From Alcaligenaceae bacterium (GTDB lineage: Bacteria > Pseudomonadota > Gammaproteobacteria > Burkholderiales > Burkholderiaceae_B), in assembly GCA_030538235.1 (NCBI GenBank), contig JAUNUJ010000001.1, positions 170,978 to 234,977 on the forward strand: a DNA stretch of 64,000 nucleotides, read 5' to 3'. Shown here one piece after another: positions 2,974-52,372 of the stretch; the stretch's first letter is position 1; each line of letters opens with the position of its first letter. The translations under genes were made by a program, and so were the position numbers. Below the pieces are notes generated by a model. The model saw only the letters and a program-made list of their open reading frames with translations, searched no databases and was not told where the DNA came from.

Positions 2974-3348
2974 ATGAAGAAAGCATTACTTCTAGTATTA
3001 TCAAGTTTGATGGTAAGCGGTGTTGCAATCGCTCAAGATGAGGGCCCAGATAACCGTTCAGCTTGGGCTAAATCGCAAGACATGTATGTTGAGCCTACTT
3101 TACGTATCACAGAAACTACCATTCCCGTCACTCCTGAACAAGCTGCTCAGCAAAACTTGTCTGTGCGTGAGGTGCCTGCCGGTACAGCCACAGCACAAAG
3201 CACCACTACGGTGGTAGGTCCTGATGGTCATGTGGTTCAGCAACAAACTGAGGCAGCAACAACGCTACCGTCCCCTACACTTGAGGTAGTTGAACCGACG
3301 TTACAGCAAGGTGCTCCGGTTCATGATCTATCCAGACCAGTACAGTAA
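2974..3348 (+). CDS. Small secreted hypothetical protein
   Basis: A 124-aa protein with a clear signal peptide (MKKALLLVLSSLMVSGVAIA, predicted cleavage before Gln-Asp-Glu). The mature part is low in complexity, rich in Thr, Pro, Val and Gln, with no cysteines and no recognisable domain; it is probably largely disordered in the periplasm. The start at 2974 follows a good AAGGAG; an upstream in-frame ATG at 2944 has no ribosome site. It is monocistronic with a terminator behind it. Function unknown. Confidence 0.65.
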   Translation: MKKALLLVLSSLMVSGVAIAQDEGPDNRSAWAKSQDMYVEPTLRITETTIPVTPEQAAQQNLSVREVPAGTATAQSTTTVVGPDGHVVQQQTEAATTLPSPTLEVVEPTLQQGAPVHDLSRPVQ

Positions 3349-38843: not shown

Positions 38844-39323
38844 ATGATACAGATCAAGAAGATTTTATATGCCTCATCTTTAAGTGATGGTAGTAAGGCA
38901 GTTTATGAGTATGCAATCCAAATGGCTTTGCAAAATAATGCTGAAATTATTTTTGTCCATGCCATTAGTCCGATGTCAGAGATGAGTAAATTTTATATTA
39001 ATCAATATATACCTCAACATCTGATCCAAAAGGTTAGGCAGGAAGGCGAACAAAAGATTATCGATGAAATGAGGGAGAGGGTGAATCAGTTTAATCAAGA
39101 GGAATTAAGTCGAATCGCTCCGGGTCAACAGGTATCGCTTAGAAAAATCGTCGCTTATGGTGAGCATAGTCGAGTTATTCTGGAAATTGCTGATAAGGAA
39201 AATGTCGATATGATTGTTATGGGCACCGCTAAAAACAGGGATGATATAAGTAAGAGTTACACAACCAGGGAAGTGCTAAAAAAAGCCAAAGTACCAGTGT
39301 TTGTGGTGCCGATCAGAACATAA
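38844..39323 (+). CDS. Universal stress protein (UspA family) in the TRAP operon
   Basis: A 159-aa UspA-fold protein (opening IKKILYASSLSDGSKAVYEYAIQMA, ending VPVFVVPI). The usual ATP-binding glycine motif G-2x-G-9x-G-S/T is degenerate: it reads GTAKNRDDISKSYTT, lacking the second and third glycines, so it may not bind ATP in the normal way. Position is telling: it is the last gene of dctPQM, as TeaD is in the ectoine TRAP operon of Halomonas, where the Usp modulates transport. A regulatory role for the transporter is inference by analogy. Confidence 0.85.
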   Translation: MIQIKKILYASSLSDGSKAVYEYAIQMALQNNAEIIFVHAISPMSEMSKFYINQYIPQHLIQKVRQEGEQKIIDEMRERVNQFNQEELSRIAPGQQVSLRKIVAYGEHSRVILEIADKENVDMIVMGTAKNRDDISKSYTTREVLKKAKVPVFVVPIRT

Positions 39324-39346
39324 TAAGCGATTGAACCTAACAATAG

Positions 39347-39380
39347 AGTCCGCGTTTTTGCTAATAAGACGCGGACTTTA
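39347..39380 (+). terminator. Terminator of the dctPQM-usp operon
   Basis: A perfect 9-bp GC-rich stem AGTCCGCGT / ACGCGGACT with a 13-nt loop, then a T-rich stretch. It ends the operon about 90 bp before the DnaA-box region and shields that region from transcription. Confidence 0.8.
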
Positions 39381-39470
39381 ATGCTTTAAGTTTGTTTATC
39401 TGCATACCATCTTGTTCTGCGCATAAGGCAGCACTGCTTCAAGAGTGATCAAAATCGTAATTTTCATTTA

Positions 39471-39534
39471 AATCAAATAGCTGTAGAGCAGTCATCAGAC
39501 TACGCACAGAGTTATCCACAGATTAGGTGGATAA
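39471..39534. promoter_or_regulatory. DnaA/IHF-like unit 1
   Basis: AATCAA at 39471; perfect DnaA box TTATCCACA at 39512-39520; inverted box (minus strand TTATCCACC, one mismatch) at 39526-39534. The two boxes also form a 10-bp perfect inverted repeat (39510-39519 with 39527-39536). CATCAGAC between the motifs is shared with unit 2. Confidence 0.8.
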
Positions 39535-39773
39535 CTTCACAGAGCTTATTATTGACATATTTCAGCGGTTTTTAAACAGATTCACCGAATCAAATCGACT
39601 CTAATAAAGGATCAAAACTGATTTTAAAATATTATTTTTTACTGAAAAATACTTCAAATACAAATTAATCATTTAAAGTTGGTAAAGATTAATTTTTCCC
39701 TATGTTTAAACCTTAAACTGTCAGACTAAACAACAATTGCTTCTAAAGTTATCAAAATCGATTAATCTAGATA

Positions 39774-39837
39774 TATCAATAAGATACAGTTAACTCATCA
39801 GACAATGCACAAAGTTATCCACAGAATTGGTGGATAA
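39774..39837. promoter_or_regulatory. DnaA/IHF-like unit 2
   Basis: TATCAA at 39774, followed after four bases by ATA, so one mismatch from the IHF consensus WATCAANNNNTTR; perfect DnaA box at 39815-39823; inverted box TTATCCACC on the minus strand at 39829-39837. Confidence 0.8.
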
Positions 39838-39842
39838 GATTG

Positions 39843-39877
39843 CTCTGGACTAGTGATTATTAATCCTTAGTCCAGAG
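39843..39877. other. Perfect hairpin inside the DnaA-box array
   Basis: CTCTGGACTA (39843-39852) pairs perfectly with TAGTCCAGAG (39868-39877) across a 15-nt AT-rich loop, five bp after unit 2. No T-run follows, so it is not an obvious terminator; it may be a protein-binding dyad or an extruding cruciform. Confidence 0.6.
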
Positions 39878-40068
39878 TTGCAAAAGAGTTTTAATAGATG
39901 GTGTTTTTATTTTTTGAAAGATTGATGAGTTTTTTTAGTGTCTTTTTAAGTCTTTGATTTGACAAAGAGAAATTAAAGTCCAGTCGTTTAAGTTTAAAAG
40001 TATTATTGAGCTTGTCATTATTAATCATGGCGTGATTCATTTATCATCATGATTGGCTAAACCATGTA

Positions 40069-40132
40069 AATCAATTGGATAGAGTGCATTCATCAATTAA
40101 TACACAAAGTTATCCACAGTTTCTGTGGATAA
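40069..40132. promoter_or_regulatory. DnaA/IHF-like unit 3 (both boxes perfect)
   Basis: AATCAA at 40069 within AATCAATTGGATAG (IHF-like, one mismatch); perfect DnaA box at 40110-40118 and a perfect inverted box TGTGGATAA at 40124-40132. This is the best-conserved unit. Confidence 0.85.
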
Positions 40133-40243
40133 GAACGAGTAGAGTTCAGCGTTGTGTTTAGGGTCTTAGTAAGGGTTGCTAGTTTTTTTACGTGACGCAG
40201 TGTTAGTACTTTAGAGTATCATTTTAGTCCTAATAAGTTGCTT

Positions 40244-40306
40244 AAGTGATTGAATATTAAATAAATTTTTTTATAATGATTTTTTTTTAATACGTCAAGT
40301 GGATAA
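40244..40306. promoter_or_regulatory. AT-rich tract with a single inverted DnaA box
   Basis: From ~40244 to 40297 the sequence is almost pure A and T (runs of seven and nine Ts), ending in an inverted DnaA box at 40298-40306 (minus strand TTATCCACT, one mismatch). An AT-rich stretch joined to a DnaA box is the usual arrangement of a DNA-unwinding element, but function is unproven. Confidence 0.5.
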
Positions 40307-40363
40307 ATTAGTCTTGATAGTGCTTGTTGGGCAAGACATCACCAATGCAGTCTAAGCGTTAAG

Positions 40364-40427
40364 AATCAATCGGATAGCTTGAAGTTATTAAATTATCCAC
40401 AAAGTTATCCACAGTTCGATTGGATAA
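40364..40427. promoter_or_regulatory. DnaA/IHF-like unit 4 with tandem boxes
   Basis: AATCAA at 40364 within AATCAATCGGATAG; two perfect direct DnaA boxes at 40393-40401 and 40405-40413, start to start 12 bp; then a weaker inverted box (minus strand TTATCCAAT) at 40419-40427. Direct boxes joined by AAG resemble those of bacterial origins. Confidence 0.8.
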
Positions 40428-40488
40428 AACAATCAAATTCGCTTTGAACTGTAAGCGTCTGTTGAACACCGATTGATTTCATCTAAAA

Positions 40489-40521
40489 GAACAATGCCCC
40501 GATAAATTCGGGGCATTGTTC
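40489..40521 (-). terminator. Distal terminator of glcB
   Basis: A perfect 13-bp stem (GAACAATGCCCCG / CGGGGCATTGTTC) with a 7-nt loop; read on the minus strand it is followed by TTTTAG. It is the second of two terminators behind glcB, and stops transcripts entering the DnaA-box array. Confidence 0.8.
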
Positions 40522-40560
40522 ATTCCGCTGTGGCGGTTGGGGTGTTCGGCGCTTGCCACT

Positions 40561-40591
40561 AAAAAGCCCGCGATCATCATGATCGCGGGCT
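40561..40591 (-). terminator. Proximal terminator of glcB
   Basis: A perfect 12-bp GC-rich stem AGCCCGCGATCA / TGATCGCGGGCT with a 3-nt loop; on the minus strand five Ts follow. It lies 40 bp after the glcB stop. Confidence 0.9.
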
Positions 40592-40630
40592 GTGTGCTAC
40601 AAAGCTTTGAACCGTTAGGATTAAAACAGA

Positions 40631-42808
40631 TTACTCGCCTTTTTTAACCTCGGCACGCCAGTGATGCAATAAAGGCTCAGTGTAGCCGTTAGGCTGTTCT
40701 TTACCTTTAAAGATTAAATCGCTGGCAGCTTGGAAAGCAGCTGAGGATTGCTCATTACCGGACATCGGACGATACAAGGGATCACCGGCGTTTTGTTCGT
40801 CAACAACTTTAGCCATACGAGTCAGAGCGGCATCAACATCATCCTTGCTGACAATGCCATGCTCTAACCAGTTGCAAATATGCTGACTGGAGATGCGTAG
40901 GGTGGCACGGTCTTCCATTAGGCCGATATTGTGAATATCCAGCACCTTGGAGCAACCAACACCTTGGTCAACCCAGCGTACAACGTAGCCTAAAATACCC
41001 TGACAGTTGTTGTCTAACTCTTCTTGCTTCTCAGTGTCTGACCAAGAGGTATCAGTAGCCACCGGAATGGTTAATAAGTCATCGAGGTAGTCAGCCGTAT
41101 CCTGAGCTTTTTCTTTTTGAACATCAAAGACGTTTACTTGGTGATAGTGCAAGCTATGGATAGTCGCGCCGGTTGGAGAGGGGACCCAAGCGGTGGTTGC
41201 GCCTGCCTTAGGGTGAGCAATTTTTTGCTCTAGCATACCCTTCATGAGATCAGGCATTGCCCACATGCCCTTACCGATTTGTGCTTTACCTGCTAAGCCG
41301 CACGCCAAACCAACTTGAACGTTGTTAGCCTCGTAAGCTTTAATCCAAGGCGTGTTTCTCATATCACCTTTACGGATCATAGGGCCGGCAAGCATCGAAG
41401 TGTGCATTTCGTCACCAGTACGATCAAGGAAGCCTGTGTTAATAAACACACAACGCTCTCTAGCTTCATAAATACACGCTTTTAGGTTCACTGAAGTGCG
41501 ACGCTCTTCGTCCATGATACCCATTTTGAGGGTGTTTTTAGGCAGTTTTGCTAGTGCTTCAGCCGCAGTAAATAACGCATTGGCAAAAGCCACTTCTTCA
41601 GGACCGTGCATTTTTGGTTTAACAACGTATACGCTACCATTACGGCTGTTCTGGTTGCTGTCGCGGGCTTGGTCATAAGCAGCGATAATTGCAGTCACTG
41701 CAGCGTCTAGAACGCCTTCCGGGATCATATTGCCGGATTCGTCCAGAACCGCTGGGGTGCTCATTAAATGGCCGACATTACGGCAGAATAATAAAGAGCG
41801 ACCAGGTAGTATAAATGGCTTTTCATCAGCGGCACTTAAGTATTCGCGATCTTCATTTAAACGACGTGTAAAAATTTTACCGTCTTTGGCGATTTCTTCA
41901 TTTAGTTCACCGTTCATTAGGCCTAACCAGTTACGGTAAATTAAGGCTTTATCTTCACCGTCAACCGCTGCCACCGAGTCTTCAAAGTCAATAATCGTAG
42001 TTAATGCAGCTTCCATGACAATGTCTTTGACACCGGCAGGATCTTGCTTACCAATAGGGTGATTTTTGTCTATCAAGATATCGAAATGCAGTCCGTTATG
42101 AAGGAAAATAATAGAATTAGGCGCTGCGGCGTCACCGTTGAAACCAACTAACAGTTCAGTTTGCTGTAAAGCAGTTTCATTGCCATTGCTTAGAGTGACT
42201 TTAAGCTGGCCATTAGCAATGCTGTAAGCGACTGCATCGCTGTGGGAACCTTCAACTAGAGGAATGCTCTCATCAAGAAAGCGGCGACCAAAAGCGATAA
42301 CTTCAGCGCCACGTTTAGGATTGTATTCGCCGCTATGAGCTAAATCACCACTTTGATCAATGGCATCAGAACCGTATAAGGCATCGTAGAGGCTACCCCA
42401 ACGAGCATTTGCAGCGTTAAGTGAGTAGCGTGCGTTGGTTGCAGGAACAACGAGTTGTGGACCGGCCTGTTGGGCAATTTCACGGTCTACATTGTCAGTG
42501 CTGATATTGAAATCGGCAGGTTCATCAACCAGATAGCCAATTTCTTTTAGGAACGCTTTGTAGGTACCCATATCTTTGATTGGGCCCGGATTGGCTTTGT
42601 ACCAATCGTCTATTTGCGCTTGTAGGGCATCACGTTTTTCTAGTAGGGCCTTGTTTTTTGGTGCAAATTCTTTAACGAAGTTAGAGAAGTTTTTCCAAAA
42701 CTCATCACGATCTAATTTGTGAGGGTGATTAGCTAAGATATCATCATTGATCAAATTGAAAAGGGTTTCTTCAACTTGAAGGGATTCAATTTTCTTGTAT
42801 TGAGTCAT
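40631..42808 (-). CDS. glcB: Malate synthase G
   Basis: A 725-aa enzyme, the length of the G isoform (E. coli 723). Recognisable parts are the metal-binding [16 protein letters not shown], the catalytic [24 protein letters not shown] and [19 protein letters not shown] segments, [16 protein letters not shown], and the C-terminal [22 protein letters not shown]. It condenses glyoxylate and acetyl-CoA to malate. It lies behind aceA on the same strand, but a terminator separates them, so it probably has its own promoter. GGGAGTGAG precedes ATG. Confidence 0.96.
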
Positions 42809-42905: not shown

Positions 42906-44510
42906 TTAGAAGTCGAATTGGTTCATTGTGTTGTCTTCACCAGAGGCTTTAAGTGCTGCATCACCTGAGAAGAATTCTTTGTGGTTATCACCGATGTCAG
43001 AACCGGCCATGTTCTGGTGTCTAACACATGCGATACCCTGACGAATTTCTTCACGCTGAACGCCTTTAACATAAGCAAGCATCGCTTCTTCACGAGAGAA
43101 GTAACCTTTGGCTAAGTTATCAGTTGATAGAGCTGCCGTGTGGTAAGTAGGTAATGTGATCAAGTGGTGGAAAATACCGGCTTGAGCAGAACCGTCTTTT
43201 TGGAAGCTGCTGATTAGCTCGTCGGCTTCGTTGCTTAAATCAGTACCATCGTACTCAACACTCATTAAACCTTCGCGATCGTAAGCAGAAACGTCTTTGC
43301 CTTCTTCTTGCCACTTATCAAATACTTGTTGACGGAAGTTTAGGGTCCAGTTGAACGATGGGCTGTTGTTGTAAACAAGCTTGGCGTTAGGAACAACGTC
43401 GCGAATACGGTCAACCATGGCTTTAATCTGACCAACGTGAGGCTTTTCAGTCTCAATCCAGATCATATCTGCACCGTTTTGTAGTGAGGTGATGCAGTCT
43501 AATACAACACGATCTTCACCGGTACCGGCACGGAACTGGAATAGGTTGCTAGCTAAACGCTTAGGACGTAATAATTTACCATCACGCTTAAGAATGATGT
43601 CACCATTGCCCAATTGGTCTGCAGAAATTTCTTCGCAATCTAAGAAGCTGTTGTATTGGTCGCCTAAATCACCCGGCTCGCTAGTGATAGCGATTTGTTT
43701 GGTTAGACCGGCACCTAAAGAGTCAGTACGGGCAACAATAACACCGTTAGGAATACCTAATTCTAGGAAAGCGTAACGTACAGCGTTGATTTTTGAGAGG
43801 AAGTCATTATGAGGAACAGTCACTTTACCGTCTTGGTGACCACATTGCTTCTCATCAGAAACTTGGTTTTCGATCTGAATAGCACAAGCACCAGCTTCGA
43901 TCATTTTCTTAGCTAATAAGTATGTCGCTTCTTCGTTACCGAAACCGGCGTCAATATCAGCAATAATCGGTACGATGTGAGTTTCGTGATTATTGATTTG
44001 CTCAATGATTTCAGCTTCTTTAGCAGAATCGCCGGCTTTGCGAGCAGCGTCTAAGGAAGTGAATAATAAGTCTAATTCGCGTGCATCAGCCTGACGCAAG
44101 AATGTGTAGAGTTCTTCAATTAGATCAGAAACTGAGGTTTTTTCATGCATAGATTGGTCAGGAAGAGGACCAAATTTAGAACGCATTGCAGCGACCATCC
44201 AGCCTGATAAGTATAAGTACTTTTTATCAGTGGTTTTGAAGTGCTTTTTGATGGAAATTAATTTTTGCTGAGCAATAAAACCGTGCCAGCAACCTAAAGA
44301 CTGAGTGTACTTTGATGGATCAGCATCGTACTCTTCCATGTCTTTACGCATGATATCAGCAGTGTAACGAGCGATATCTAAACCGTTTTGGAAACGATTC
44401 ATAATGCGCATACGAGCAACTGCATCAGCATTAATTGCGTTCCAGCCGGAACCGCCTTGGTTGATTTCCTCTTGAGCTTTTTGAACTTCAGCTTGATAGG
44501 TTTGAGTCAT
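42906..44510 (-). CDS. aceA: Isocitrate lyase
   Basis: From ATG 44510 (GGAGAG upstream) the product is 534 aa, matching the long Pseudomonas/Acinetobacter-type lyase. The active-site signature appears as EKQCGHQDGKVTVP (catalytic Cys in K-Q-C-G-H), with the metal ligand region PIIADIDAGFGNEEATYLL and WIETEKPHVGQI. It splits isocitrate into succinate and glyoxylate, the first step of the glyoxylate shunt. An in-frame ATG at 44561 has no ribosome site. Palindromes 80-145 bp upstream could bind its regulator. Confidence 0.95.
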   Translation of the reverse strand: MTQTYQAEVQKAQEEINQGGSGWNAINADAVARMRIMNRFQNGLDIARYTADIMRKDMEEYDADPSKYTQSLGCWHGFIAQQKLISIKKHFKTTDKKYLYLSGWMVAAMRSKFGPLPDQSMHEKTSVSDLIEELYTFLRQADARELDLLFTSLDAARKAGDSAKEAEIIEQINNHETHIVPIIADIDAGFGNEEATYLLAKKMIEAGACAIQIENQVSDEKQCGHQDGKVTVPHNDFLSKINAVRYAFLELGIPNGVIVARTDSLGAGLTKQIAITSEPGDLGDQYNSFLDCEEISADQLGNGDIILKRDGKLLRPKRLASNLFQFRAGTGEDRVVLDCITSLQNGADMIWIETEKPHVGQIKAMVDRIRDVVPNAKLVYNNSPSFNWTLNFRQQVFDKWQEEGKDVSAYDREGLMSVEYDGTDLSNEADELISSFQKDGSAQAGIFHHLITLPTYHTAALSTDNLAKGYFSREEAMLAYVKGVQREEIRQGIACVRHQNMAGSDIGDNHKEFFSGDAALKASGEDNTMNQFDF

Positions 44511-45338
44511 AACTACTCTCCGTTTATTAATAAAATAAAAAAATTGTTGCGTAGCAAGCATACTTGCTGAGCCAATCTACTTATTTTTGGTCTTATACAA
44601 GAGCTAAAGTCTTGTTGTGATTGGTTTATAGTTAGTCTTATATAAAACATAAGACTTATTGGTGCATAGCAATAAATTAACGTAAATTTAACCCTGTGTA
44701 AATAGCAATTTCCCTAAGTTTGATAAAACTAGGGTAAACCCCGTAGTTATTTGCTGCAAGGGGGTATTTTGAATTGTCAAAGACAAAAGGCTTAATGCAG
44801 TGTATTAGTGGATGGCGCCAAGGATAGCGTCTGCAAAAAACCAGTTGCTCTTCTATTTAGTTGTGGTGAATATACCAAGAAAACCATCGCTATGTGGGGA
44901 AGTGGGCTTAAATTTGAATATGGATGTTCTAATGTTTTTCAACATAGACATTTAATTAAAGGATGTTATATATTTTGCTTCTAACTTGGAAGCTCCTCAA
45001 TTGAGATTGATCTTTTTATCTAAGCTTGTTGTGCTTGTAGGGTATAGCTTTGTCGGTATTATTACTGGCATGGCAGGACATACAGCGCAGTGCCCCCTAT
45101 TATGAAACCGTTACGGCTAGCCGAAAATTAGCTTCAAGAACGAGCGCATGGGGATTGTATGGAATTTGAGACAGGGCATGATGCGATGGTAACGTCAGCG
45201 AAACTTTTGGTGACGATATGGTCTAATATTTAGACAGTGTTGTATGCATCATGGTGTGTTTTGTGCTGTGACTGTTATTTGCGGTTAATTTGTTTTTATC
45301 TTTTTTTATCTGATAAGACAGTACTTTCACAGCAAGCA
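44511..45338. other. ~830-bp noncoding region upstream of aceA
   Basis: No gene is supported. Short frames exist (for example a 39-codon frame starting near 45055) but lack ribosome sites and family signals. The first 150 bp hold palindromes that may regulate aceA. From ~44760 to 45330 I see no hairpins, repeats or RNA-like structure that I can defend; it may be a decayed gene. Confidence 0.4.
44591..44655. promoter_or_regulatory. Candidate operator dyads upstream of aceA
   Basis: GTCTTAT (44635-44641) and ATAAGAC (44649-44655) form a perfect 7-bp dyad; a second, imperfect palindrome TCTTATACAAGA lies at 44591-44602. Both share the half-site TCTTAT. The TCTTAT-n-ATAAGA shape resembles operators of GntR-type metabolic regulators. 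They sit 81-145 bp before the aceA start. Regulator identity is not visible. Confidence 0.5.
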
Positions 45339-50344: not shown

Positions 50345-52372
50345 ATGAGCCAAGCAAGATTCCTAGAATTTCCTAATAGCCCTTTTCAGCTCTATCAACC
50401 ATTTCCTCCCGCGGGTGATCAACCTGCAGCGATTGATGCCTTGGTAGAGGGGATAGATGATGGCTTAATGTTTCAAACATTGTTAGGTGTTACCGGTTCC
50501 GGTAAGACCTATACCATGGCCAATACCATTGCCCGTTTAGGTAGACCGGCGTTAATTTTGGCGCCCAATAAAACCCTAGCGGCTCAGCTCTATGCGGAGA
50601 TGCGTGAGTTCTTCCCGCGCAACGCGGTTGAGTATTTTGTCTCTTACTATGATTACTACCAACCGGAGGCCTATGTACCGGCGCGTGATTTGTTTATTGA
50701 AAAGGATTCCTCGGTCAATGAGCATATTGAGCAAATGCGTTTGTCAGCAACCAAAAGTCTCTTAGAGCGACGCGATACCATTGTCGTGGGTACCGTTTCG
50801 ACCATTTATGGTATTGGTAATCAAAGTGATTATCACGCCATGATTTTATTGATCAGGAGAGGCGATGAAATTCCTCGTAATGAGCTCCTAGCCCGTTTAG
50901 TCGCGATGCAATATGAACGTAATGATATGGAGTTCAGTCGTGGTACTTTTAGAGTTCGCGGTGATGTGATTGATGTTTTCCCTTCGGAGAACGCCGAGTT
51001 AGCGGTTCGTCTAAGTATGTTCGATGATGAGATTGAGACCATCGAGCTTTTTGATCCATTGACCGGCAAAGTACGTCAGGAAATCCCGCGTTTTACGATT
51101 TACCCTAGCTCTCACTTTGTGACGCCTCGAGAGACTATTTTACGGGCGATAGAAACAATCAAAGAGGAGTTGCGAGAGCGTAAACAGTATTACTACGATC
51201 AGGGCATGTTGGTTGAAGCACAACGTATTGAACAGCGCACTTTATTTGACCTCGAAATGATGCAAGAGCTTGGTTTCTGTAAGGGCATTGAAAACTACTC
51301 CAGACATTTATCAGGTGCCGCACCGGGCGAACCGCCAGCCACCTTAATTGATTATTTACCCCAAGATGCCTTAATGTTTTTTGATGAGAGTCATGTGATG
51401 ATGGGGCAATTGCGGGGGATGTATCGTGGTGACCGTTCGCGCAAAGAAACCTTGGTGCAATTCGGTTTTAGATTGCCGTCGGCTTTGGATAATAGACCTT
51501 TAAAAATCGAAGAATTTGAGCAACGCATGCGTCAAAGCGTCTTTGTTTCCGCAACCCCTGCCGATTATGAAAAAGAGCGTTCTGATCAGGTAGTGGAGCA
51601 AGTGGTGCGACCGACCGGTTTAGTGGACCCCATTGTTGAAGTCAGACCGGCCTTGACTCAGGTTGATGATTTATTAGGTGAGGCCAAAGAACGTATTGCT
51701 GTGGGTGAACGTGTTTTAGTCACTACCTTAACTAAGCGTATGGCAGAGGATTTAACCGAGTATTTAGAGGAAAATGGACTCAAGGTTCGGTATTTGCACT
51801 CTGATATTGACACTGTTGAACGAGTGGAAATTATTCGAGATTTGCGCTTGGGCACTTTTGATGTCTTGGTGGGGATTAACTTACTAAGAGAGGGTCTGGA
51901 TATCCCGGAGGTTTCCTTGGTGGCGATTTTAGATGCGGACAAAGAGGGGTTTTTACGTTCCGATCGTAGTTTGATTCAGACCATTGGTCGTGCAGCTCGT
52001 AACCTAAACGGTAAAGCCATTTTATATGCCGATCGGGTGACTGATTCAATGGCGCGAGCGATTGATGAGACCGAGCGTCGTCGTATCAAACAAGTCAGTT
52101 TTAACGAAGAGCATGGGATTACGCCGGTCGGTGTGCACAAAAAGGTCAAAGAAATGATCGATGGCGTGATGGCGCCCGTTGATGAACCGATATCTTCAAT
52201 TCAAATTGATGATCTGAAACGCTTTGTTAATGATGAAAAAGCGTTGAGTCGTGAACTTAAGCGTCTTGAAAAAGCGATGATGGATCATGCTAAAAATCTG
52301 GAGTTTGAAGAAGCGGCTGCAGTTCGTGACCAATTGCAAAGGCTTAAGCAAGAAGTTTTGTTAAACTCCTAA
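50345..52372 (+). CDS. uvrB: Excinuclease ABC subunit B
   Basis: A 675-aa nucleotide-excision-repair helicase. Walker A is [13 protein letters not shown] (~residue 43), the damage-probing beta-hairpin starts at [14 protein letters not shown], later motifs are [35 protein letters not shown] and QTIGRAARN, and the C-terminal UVR domain ([24 protein letters not shown]) binds UvrC. All parts are intact. I see no LexA box in the 94 bp between it and tyrB. Confidence 0.97.

Follow-up and report, generated by a model that had tools for sequence, protein, structure and literature searches.

DARS are sites that promote the exchange of ADP for ATP on DnaA. They were reportedly first described by Fujimitsu in 2009, and the reactivation of DnaA by DARS is known mainly from Escherichia coli and its close relatives. 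The core of these sites, as defined in a passage of PMC5742627, is formed by three DnaA boxes, I to III, which have equal spacing in DARS1 and DARS2, with box I oriented opposite to boxes II and III, and a passage of PMC8682772 describes a head-to-head interaction of DnaA on boxes I and II. For E. coli DARS2, excerpts of PMC4245941 report that the sites IBS1-2 and FBS2-3 are required and position-sensitive, and that activity is lower when the IHF site is moved by 5 or 10 bp. As for their distribution, the same excerpts link both Fis and the DARS2 core to E. coli-related gammaproteobacteria, part of PMC10380432 states that DARS-like sequences are present in many proteobacteria, and part of PMC5742627 that the spacing of the DARS2 parts is conserved in E. 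coli-proximal beta- or gammaproteobacteria. Because passages of the latter two sources mention a wider occurrence, DARS outside enterics are not new in themselves.

Here we describe a locus on a 64-kb stretch of DNA (hereafter the window) from contig C9 of a 2.43 Mb genome in 14 contigs. Judging from its sequence, it most likely consists of four DARS-type modules in tandem and would act as an IHF/Fis-gated, multi-copy DnaA-reactivating locus, a compact variant of the DARS2 type. This reading draws on features present in the DNA, namely the layout and spacing of the boxes, their tandem copies, their conservation, the IHF-like and Fis-like sites, and genes for DnaA, an Hda-like protein, IHF-alpha and a Fis-family protein.

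Core layout compared with the E. coli loci

The four-unit array is located inside a 1.3-kb intergenic gap (39324..40630) between two convergent genes, and its modules are all on the plus strand. Module 1 (39436..39534) comprises a Fis-like site at 39436-39450 (1 mismatch), the IHF-like site AATCAAATAGCTG at 39471-39483 (1 mismatch), box III at 39500-39508, box II at 39512-39520 and the inverted box I at 39526-39534. In the same order, module 2 (39739..39837) has its Fis-like site at 39739-39753 (2 mismatches), TATCAATAAGATA at 39774-39786 (1 mismatch) and its boxes at 39803-39811, 39815-39823 and 39829-39837; module 3 (40034..40132) has them at 40034-40048 (2 mismatches), 40069-40081 (AATCAATTGGATA, 1 mismatch), 40098-40106, 40110-40118 and 40124-40132; and module 4 (40329..40427) at 40329-40343 (1 mismatch), 40364-40376 (AATCAATCGGATA, 1 mismatch), 40393-40401 (perfect), 40405-40413 and 40419-40427 (2 mismatches). 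A rescan of the window bore out the four units and the periods of 303, 295 and 295 bp given in the first-pass annotation, and also that in 4/4 units TTATCCACA begins 41 bp from the unit start (at 39512, 39815, 40110 and 40405), with an inverted box 14 bp further on (at 39526, 39829, 40124 and 40419). The annotation had counted ten boxes. Six of these are indeed perfect (39512, 39815, 40110, 40124(-), 40393 and 40405) and four have one or two mismatches (39526(-), 39829(-), 40298(-) and 40419(-)), but the degenerate box III of units 1-3, at 39500, 39803 and 40098, had been overlooked. The units alone contain 12 boxes in 1 kb, six of them perfect. The extra single DnaA-box-like 9-mer at 40298..40306 (minus strand, 1 mismatch), which lies between modules 3 and 4 and outside the 30-bp cores, is probably incidental. 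According to a repeat search, the repeat unit is 89 bp long and its other copies are 62-73% identical to the reference copy. We rejected a tandem duplication of whole 300-bp repeats, as about 89 bp align and the spacers gave no convincing alignment, and also a structured RNA, for which the best Rfam match was IS128 (E 0.034, 23.3 bits versus a gathering score of 80).

In every unit (4/4), box III, 3 bp, box II, 5 bp and an inverted box I follow each other, which is the geometry of the DARS core; unit 3, for instance, reads TAATACACA, 3 bp, TTATCCACA, 5 bp and an inverted TTATCCACA. The DARS1, DARS2 and datA regions of E. coli (NC_000913) were scanned with the same 30-bp three-box pattern as the window (CACA-N3-TTATCCACA-N6-GTGGATAA, up to three mismatches allowed). 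E. coli DARS1, in the bioD-uvrB gap, reads TAATACACA-3-TTATCCACA-5-inverted box on the minus strand, with no mismatch to the core pattern; it differs from the array in being a single copy and in having no IHF match with fewer than two mismatches in the 300 bp scanned around its core. The three-box core of E. coli DARS2, upstream of mutH, has equal spacing and orientation, with two mismatches to the pattern. This locus, on the other hand, has one good core versus four here, has different neighbouring genes, and takes up 455 bp, as given in a passage of PMC8682772, versus about 100 bp per module in the array. Since the scans of DARS1 and DARS2 agree with the published definition, each unit is a DARS core by its layout. 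The view that the layout is unlike that of DARS and marks a new type of locus was therefore given up, as both E. coli loci share its boxes, spacings and orientations. The window cores have weak points: box III is degenerate in units 1-3, as it also is in E. coli, and box I of unit 4 has two mismatches. Boxes II and III of the units form a 3-bp pair, and pairs 2-3 bp apart are those preferred in E. coli DnaA ChIP-seq, according to a passage of PMC11317965.

The three-box pattern has six matches in the window, which are the four units (0, 0, 0 and 1 mismatch) plus units 2 and 3 on the opposite strand, versus none in each of 100 dinucleotide shuffles. An IHF-plus-two-box pattern was found four times, versus 0 in 100 shuffles. 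Single boxes with up to one mismatch number 29 in the window versus a shuffle mean of 16.5, and 29 was reached in 1/100 shuffles. Because single boxes are only mildly enriched and the composite patterns are absent from the shuffles, it is the arrangement that is non-random.

The comparison with E. coli also bears on a datA-like role, in which the locus would inactivate DnaA by IHF-dependent hydrolysis of DnaA-ATP instead of reactivating it. A 3-bp double box plus IHF is likewise present in E. coli datA, according to passages of PMC11317965 and PMC5742627. The datA double box lacks, however, an inverted box I at 5 bp (five mismatches to the core pattern), and the IHF site of datA is placed by a passage of PMC4585315 between DnaA boxes 2 and 3, not upstream of box III; the array has no IHF site between its boxes and does have the inverted box at 5 bp. 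A datA-like role is therefore very unlikely.

As a side observation, E. coli DARS2 has a second, degenerate core-like triple box (L007:952-981), 316 bp away from its core (L007:636 and 952). As this set is on the same strand as the core, E. coli DARS2 may be a decayed two-unit array.

Register of the IHF-like and Fis-like sites

The chosen start of each unit, AATCAA or TATCAA, had not been recognised as the start of an IHF consensus. In 4/4 units, the distance from the start of a match to this consensus, WATCAANNNNTTR, to the CACA of box III is exactly 34 bp; none of the four window sites is an exact match, each being off by one base. Thus, a consensus match to an IHF site lies on the box III side at a set distance in 4/4 units, and a Fis-like match is located 35 bp beyond it in each unit. 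E. coli DARS2 likewise has IHF sites on the box III side, with Fis sites described beyond them in a passage of PMC4245941, so that the order of core, IHF-like and Fis-like matches in the modules is the order described there for DARS2. The distances differ: in E. coli DARS2, one IHF match starts 76 bp and the other 92 bp away from the box III CACA (with 3 bp between them, in agreement with a passage of PMC4245941) versus 34 bp here, and one exact Fis consensus is found at -130. Given the different IHF distance and the different neighbours, the array may resemble DARS2 in its way of working and yet not be its positional homologue.

The same register is seen in the genus. After collapsing overlaps, an IHF site with at most one mismatch is present at 34 or 35 in 26 of 42 genus units. 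The 16 units without one are all 13 units of a second locus described below, L109, L112 and L110:7409; L109 and L112 were counted as such only because the collapsed row took the other strand, and both show an IHF site at 34, while L110:7409 is irregular, with 4 bp between boxes III and II on the other strand. A conserved block of columns extends from -70 to -54 in the genus units. We scored the six fixed positions of the Fis consensus GnnYAnnnnnTRnnC, as printed in a passage of PMC8682772. Among offsets -130 to -50, it matches best at -69 in the 17 units beside or near glcB, with a mean of 1.06 mismatches out of 6; 14/17 have at most one mismatch, and 0/300 shuffles were as good. Window units 1-4 have 1, 2, 2 and 1 mismatches at this offset. 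The Fis signal is weak in ten IHF-type genus units at other places (mean 2.8 mismatches at -70, at most one in 4/10).

A comparable position emerged from a set of at least 118 stretches from named genomes. When two offsets that overlap the core itself, and that otherwise outscore -70, are excluded, the best outer Fis offset is -70 in arrays with IHF at 35 (162 units, 83 with at most one mismatch), -69 where IHF is at 34 (35 units, 12 with at most one) and, for the 51 single-copy units, -71 (18 with at most one), with 0/100 shuffles as good in each set; as the units within a set are related, these numbers show a fixed position and not independent events.

These registers weigh on the possibility that the array is a pure sink, which would titrate DnaA and so reduce the free pool with no exchange of nucleotides. 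The 12 boxes in 1 kb, six of them perfect, would suit a sink, and so would the pair present in every unit, since E. coli DnaA binds best to pairs 2-3 bp apart according to a passage of PMC11317965. A sink needs, however, neither an inverted box at a fixed 5 bp nor IHF or Fis sites at a fixed distance, and here the inverted box, the IHF-like site and the Fis-like site are all held in register. We therefore regard pure titration as unlikely and favour a DARS-type array.

Conservation and distribution of the modules

The first-pass annotation had proposed a DnaA-related replication-control locus and had named absence from close relatives as evidence against it. The feature is present in relatives, which supports a conserved DnaA-related locus. 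The core pattern (up to three mismatches) occurs in 8/8 genus genomes, and a reversed control pattern matched once (G005). An array adjacent to glcB is present in six of the eight (G000, G002, G004, G005, G006 and G007). In G003, two units lie on a contig of 5.4 kb without a glcB match, and in G001 no tandem array was found, only single IHF-type units elsewhere. The glcB-adjacent arrays have 2 to 4 units per genome, spaced by 179 to 303 bp. The regular 300-bp spacing, once regarded as a feature of the locus, is thus not kept in the genus, nor in the named genomes, whose clusters have a median spacing of 160 bp.

A second locus of the genome, at C9:21604-22066 between lpxK and xseA, comprises two cores at a distance of 433 bp, both on the strand opposite to that of the array; an IHF site at the distance seen in the array was not found there. 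This locus is present in the lpxK-xseA gap of 7/8 genus genomes; G001 has one core there, and in the six genomes with two, the cores are 433-445 bp from each other. It was not found in G004, a genome that is 93% complete. Further IHF-type core units are seen in two genus members (L107:6256-6455, and L103:8512-8753 and 3276-3305), at loci that carry a distant homologue of a TRAP-transporter permease (26-33% identity).

Beyond the genus, cores with up to two mismatches occur in at least 106/121 family genomes and at least 202/250 order genomes. A homologue of xseA or lpxK is present in 26 of 30 family loci (L040-L069). An IHF site at 34-35 with up to one mismatch was found in none of these 30 loci, and with two mismatches in four (L045, L046, L052 and L062), of which L045 and L046 represent one other genus of the family with the site at 34. 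An IHF site at the same distance in cores outside the genus was rejected for L040-L093 (n=55): one core, L093, has it with up to one mismatch, at 35, and seven loci have it with two mismatches (L045, L046, L052, L062, L070, L075 and L085). The exact IHF module is present in 7/250 family genomes, all in this genus, in 15/399 order genomes (10/158 genera), and in 7/12 sampled genomes of family f7, counts that are lower bounds because degenerate modules are missed. We take f7 to be the Oxalobacteraceae because the module of one member of the same order and of f7 (G129) is nearly identical to that of Collimonas antrihumi, from which 2/50 letters differ. By the same token, the genome described here would belong to the Burkholderiales. 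The glcB array may have arisen by duplication and relocation of an IHF-type module within the genus, or may have been inherited from an older module. In a different genus of the same family, five same-strand core-like units spaced by 115-196 bp were seen without an IHF site (L254, G073:C28:1043957-1044651).

The named genomes were scanned for an IHF half-motif, a gap of 11-31 bp and the core, which yielded the at least 118 stretches. About 86 of these are, we presume, Burkholderiales, and the rest other or unplaced betaproteobacteria, some gamma- or alphaproteobacteria and one Neobacillus. Among the 137 exact modules in these stretches, 113 have a gap of 22 bp and 18 one of 21 bp, so that 131/137 have an IHF gap of 21-22 bp; six have any other of the 21 allowed values. 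A relaxed cluster scan (core up to four mismatches, IHF up to two, modules within 600 bp) gave 53 clusters of 2-8 modules, of which 53/53 are on a single strand. As L121 and L133 adjoin as tiles of one contig, the 53 clusters are 52 arrays, and ten clusters may be longer, since less than 600 bp separates them from the end of their tile or contig. Homologues of the second-locus genes adk, kdsB, lpxK, xseA or sodB are present in 47/53 array loci, and glcB or isocitrate lyase was found in none of the at least 118 named loci. Hence, the arrays of these bacteria mostly sit at the place of the two-core locus. The tandem IHF-DARS arrays of Janthinobacterium, Massilia, Duganella, Herbaspirillum and others resemble the present one in their Fis-like-IHF-core order, their tandem arrangement and their single strand; they differ in having IHF at 35 in most, up to eight copies and the shorter median spacing. 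Helical phasing of the module spacings was rejected: a clustering at 10.5 bp was seen for 13 genus spacings, taken without those of the second locus (R 0.71, jitter P 0.0065), but not for the 62 unique spacings of 80 named loci (P 0.11, with R 0.23 at this period).

Genomic setting and proposed function

The left neighbour of the array is a universal-stress-protein-like gene (38844..39323, plus strand), with a weak match to UspA models far under their cut-offs. On the right lies glcB, encoding malate synthase G (40631..42808, minus strand), followed by an isocitrate lyase gene (42906-44561). The best plasmid-borne malate synthase G sequences are about 62-63% identical to it, too little to be diagnostic of the source. 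The repeat search placed an inverted repeat at 39341-39383, and terminator-like hairpins are located at 40489-40521 and 40565-40591, between the array and glcB. These hairpins could point to DnaA as a regulator of one of the neighbouring genes or of read-through between the two, and DnaA is known to regulate some E. coli promoters, as stated in a passage of PMC11317965. However, both neighbours end at the gap, and therefore no promoter of theirs is located there; promoter-like matches number 9 versus 5.8 (sd 2.6) in shuffles, and such modules adjoin other genes in other lineages. We consider this kind of control highly unlikely.

The dense DnaA boxes and the AT-rich intergenic DNA could also be taken for a replication origin or part of one. 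This is extremely unlikely, as such modules adjoin different genes in other bacteria, and two observations that the first-pass annotation had asked for point away from an origin: dnaA and dnaN, as well as two other box clusters, are on another contig, C10, and the array is flanked on either side by positive GC skew. Within the 64-kb window, 15/16 bins of 4 kb are positive and one is about zero (-0.001, 32-36 kb). The array thus lies neither beside dnaA nor, over this window, at a switch of the skew; as expected of a DARS, it is intergenic, away from dnaA and oriC, and at a conserved place in relatives. As to the other box clusters, three boxes adjoin dnaA (L003:8099-8128), and ten boxes with 0-1 mismatch extend from beside mnmE across a methionine-aminotransferase-like gene (G000:C10 355.5-358 kb, L003:15567-17915) towards an ORF that we take to be mnmG. 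Besides the boxes next to dnaA, this cluster is a candidate for oriC.

The genome also contains an IHF-alpha gene above the cut-off, an Hda-like gene (188 bits, cut-off 195), and, beside dusB, a Fis-family gene of 83 aa that is over the Pfam HTH_8 cut-off and under the NCBIfam cut-offs (83.0 versus 122; 72 versus 99). From E. coli precedent, the binding of DnaA, IHF and Fis, the release of ADP, the gating and the effect of dosage may be pictured as follows. In each module, DnaA molecules would occupy boxes III and II in tandem, and a further one on box I would face that on box II head-to-head; this pair would loosen the bound ADP, so that empty DnaA could leave the module and reload with ATP. 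At -34, IHF would introduce a bend, and Fis, bound at -69, would act in concert with it, as at E. coli DARS2, and this gating would direct reactivation to the right stage of the cell cycle and of growth. The four modules would multiply the local recharging capacity, and the second, two-core locus in the xseA-lpxK gap, without that IHF site, may provide a less gated baseline comparable to DARS1.

In a search of titles and abstract starts in the open-licence literature, neither tandem DARS modules nor an IHF register of 34-35 bp were found to be described. The unusual features of the locus are the IHF-like and Fis-like sites of its units and the tandem of four modules, not its box layout. More broadly, we lean towards the view that a cassette of about 100 bp, Fis-IHF-DARS, is an evolutionary building block that the Burkholderiales have multiplied, at more than one site of the chromosome, into same-strand tandem arrays of 2-8 copies, with the copy number setting the rate of DnaA recharging, and that the enteric single-copy DARS2 would be one derived, stretched-out form of this IHF/Fis-gated design, whose occurrence extends far beyond the enterics. 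Such a short and repeated cassette, in which IHF-like and Fis-like sites are in register, offers a small system in which the IHF position, Fis and the copy number can be varied singly, and it makes DnaA recharging testable in betaproteobacteria. It also provides a sequence rule by which such loci can be found in genomes, namely a distance of 34-35 bp between the start of the IHF site and the box III CACA.

Finally, uvrB, which is a neighbour of DARS1 in E. coli, is located in the window at 50345-52372, 10 kb from the array, and a uvrB homologue is present in five of the at least 118 named module loci: L162 and L200 (Salinivibrio), L123 and L186 (Rhodobiaceae) and L168 (an alphaproteobacterium).
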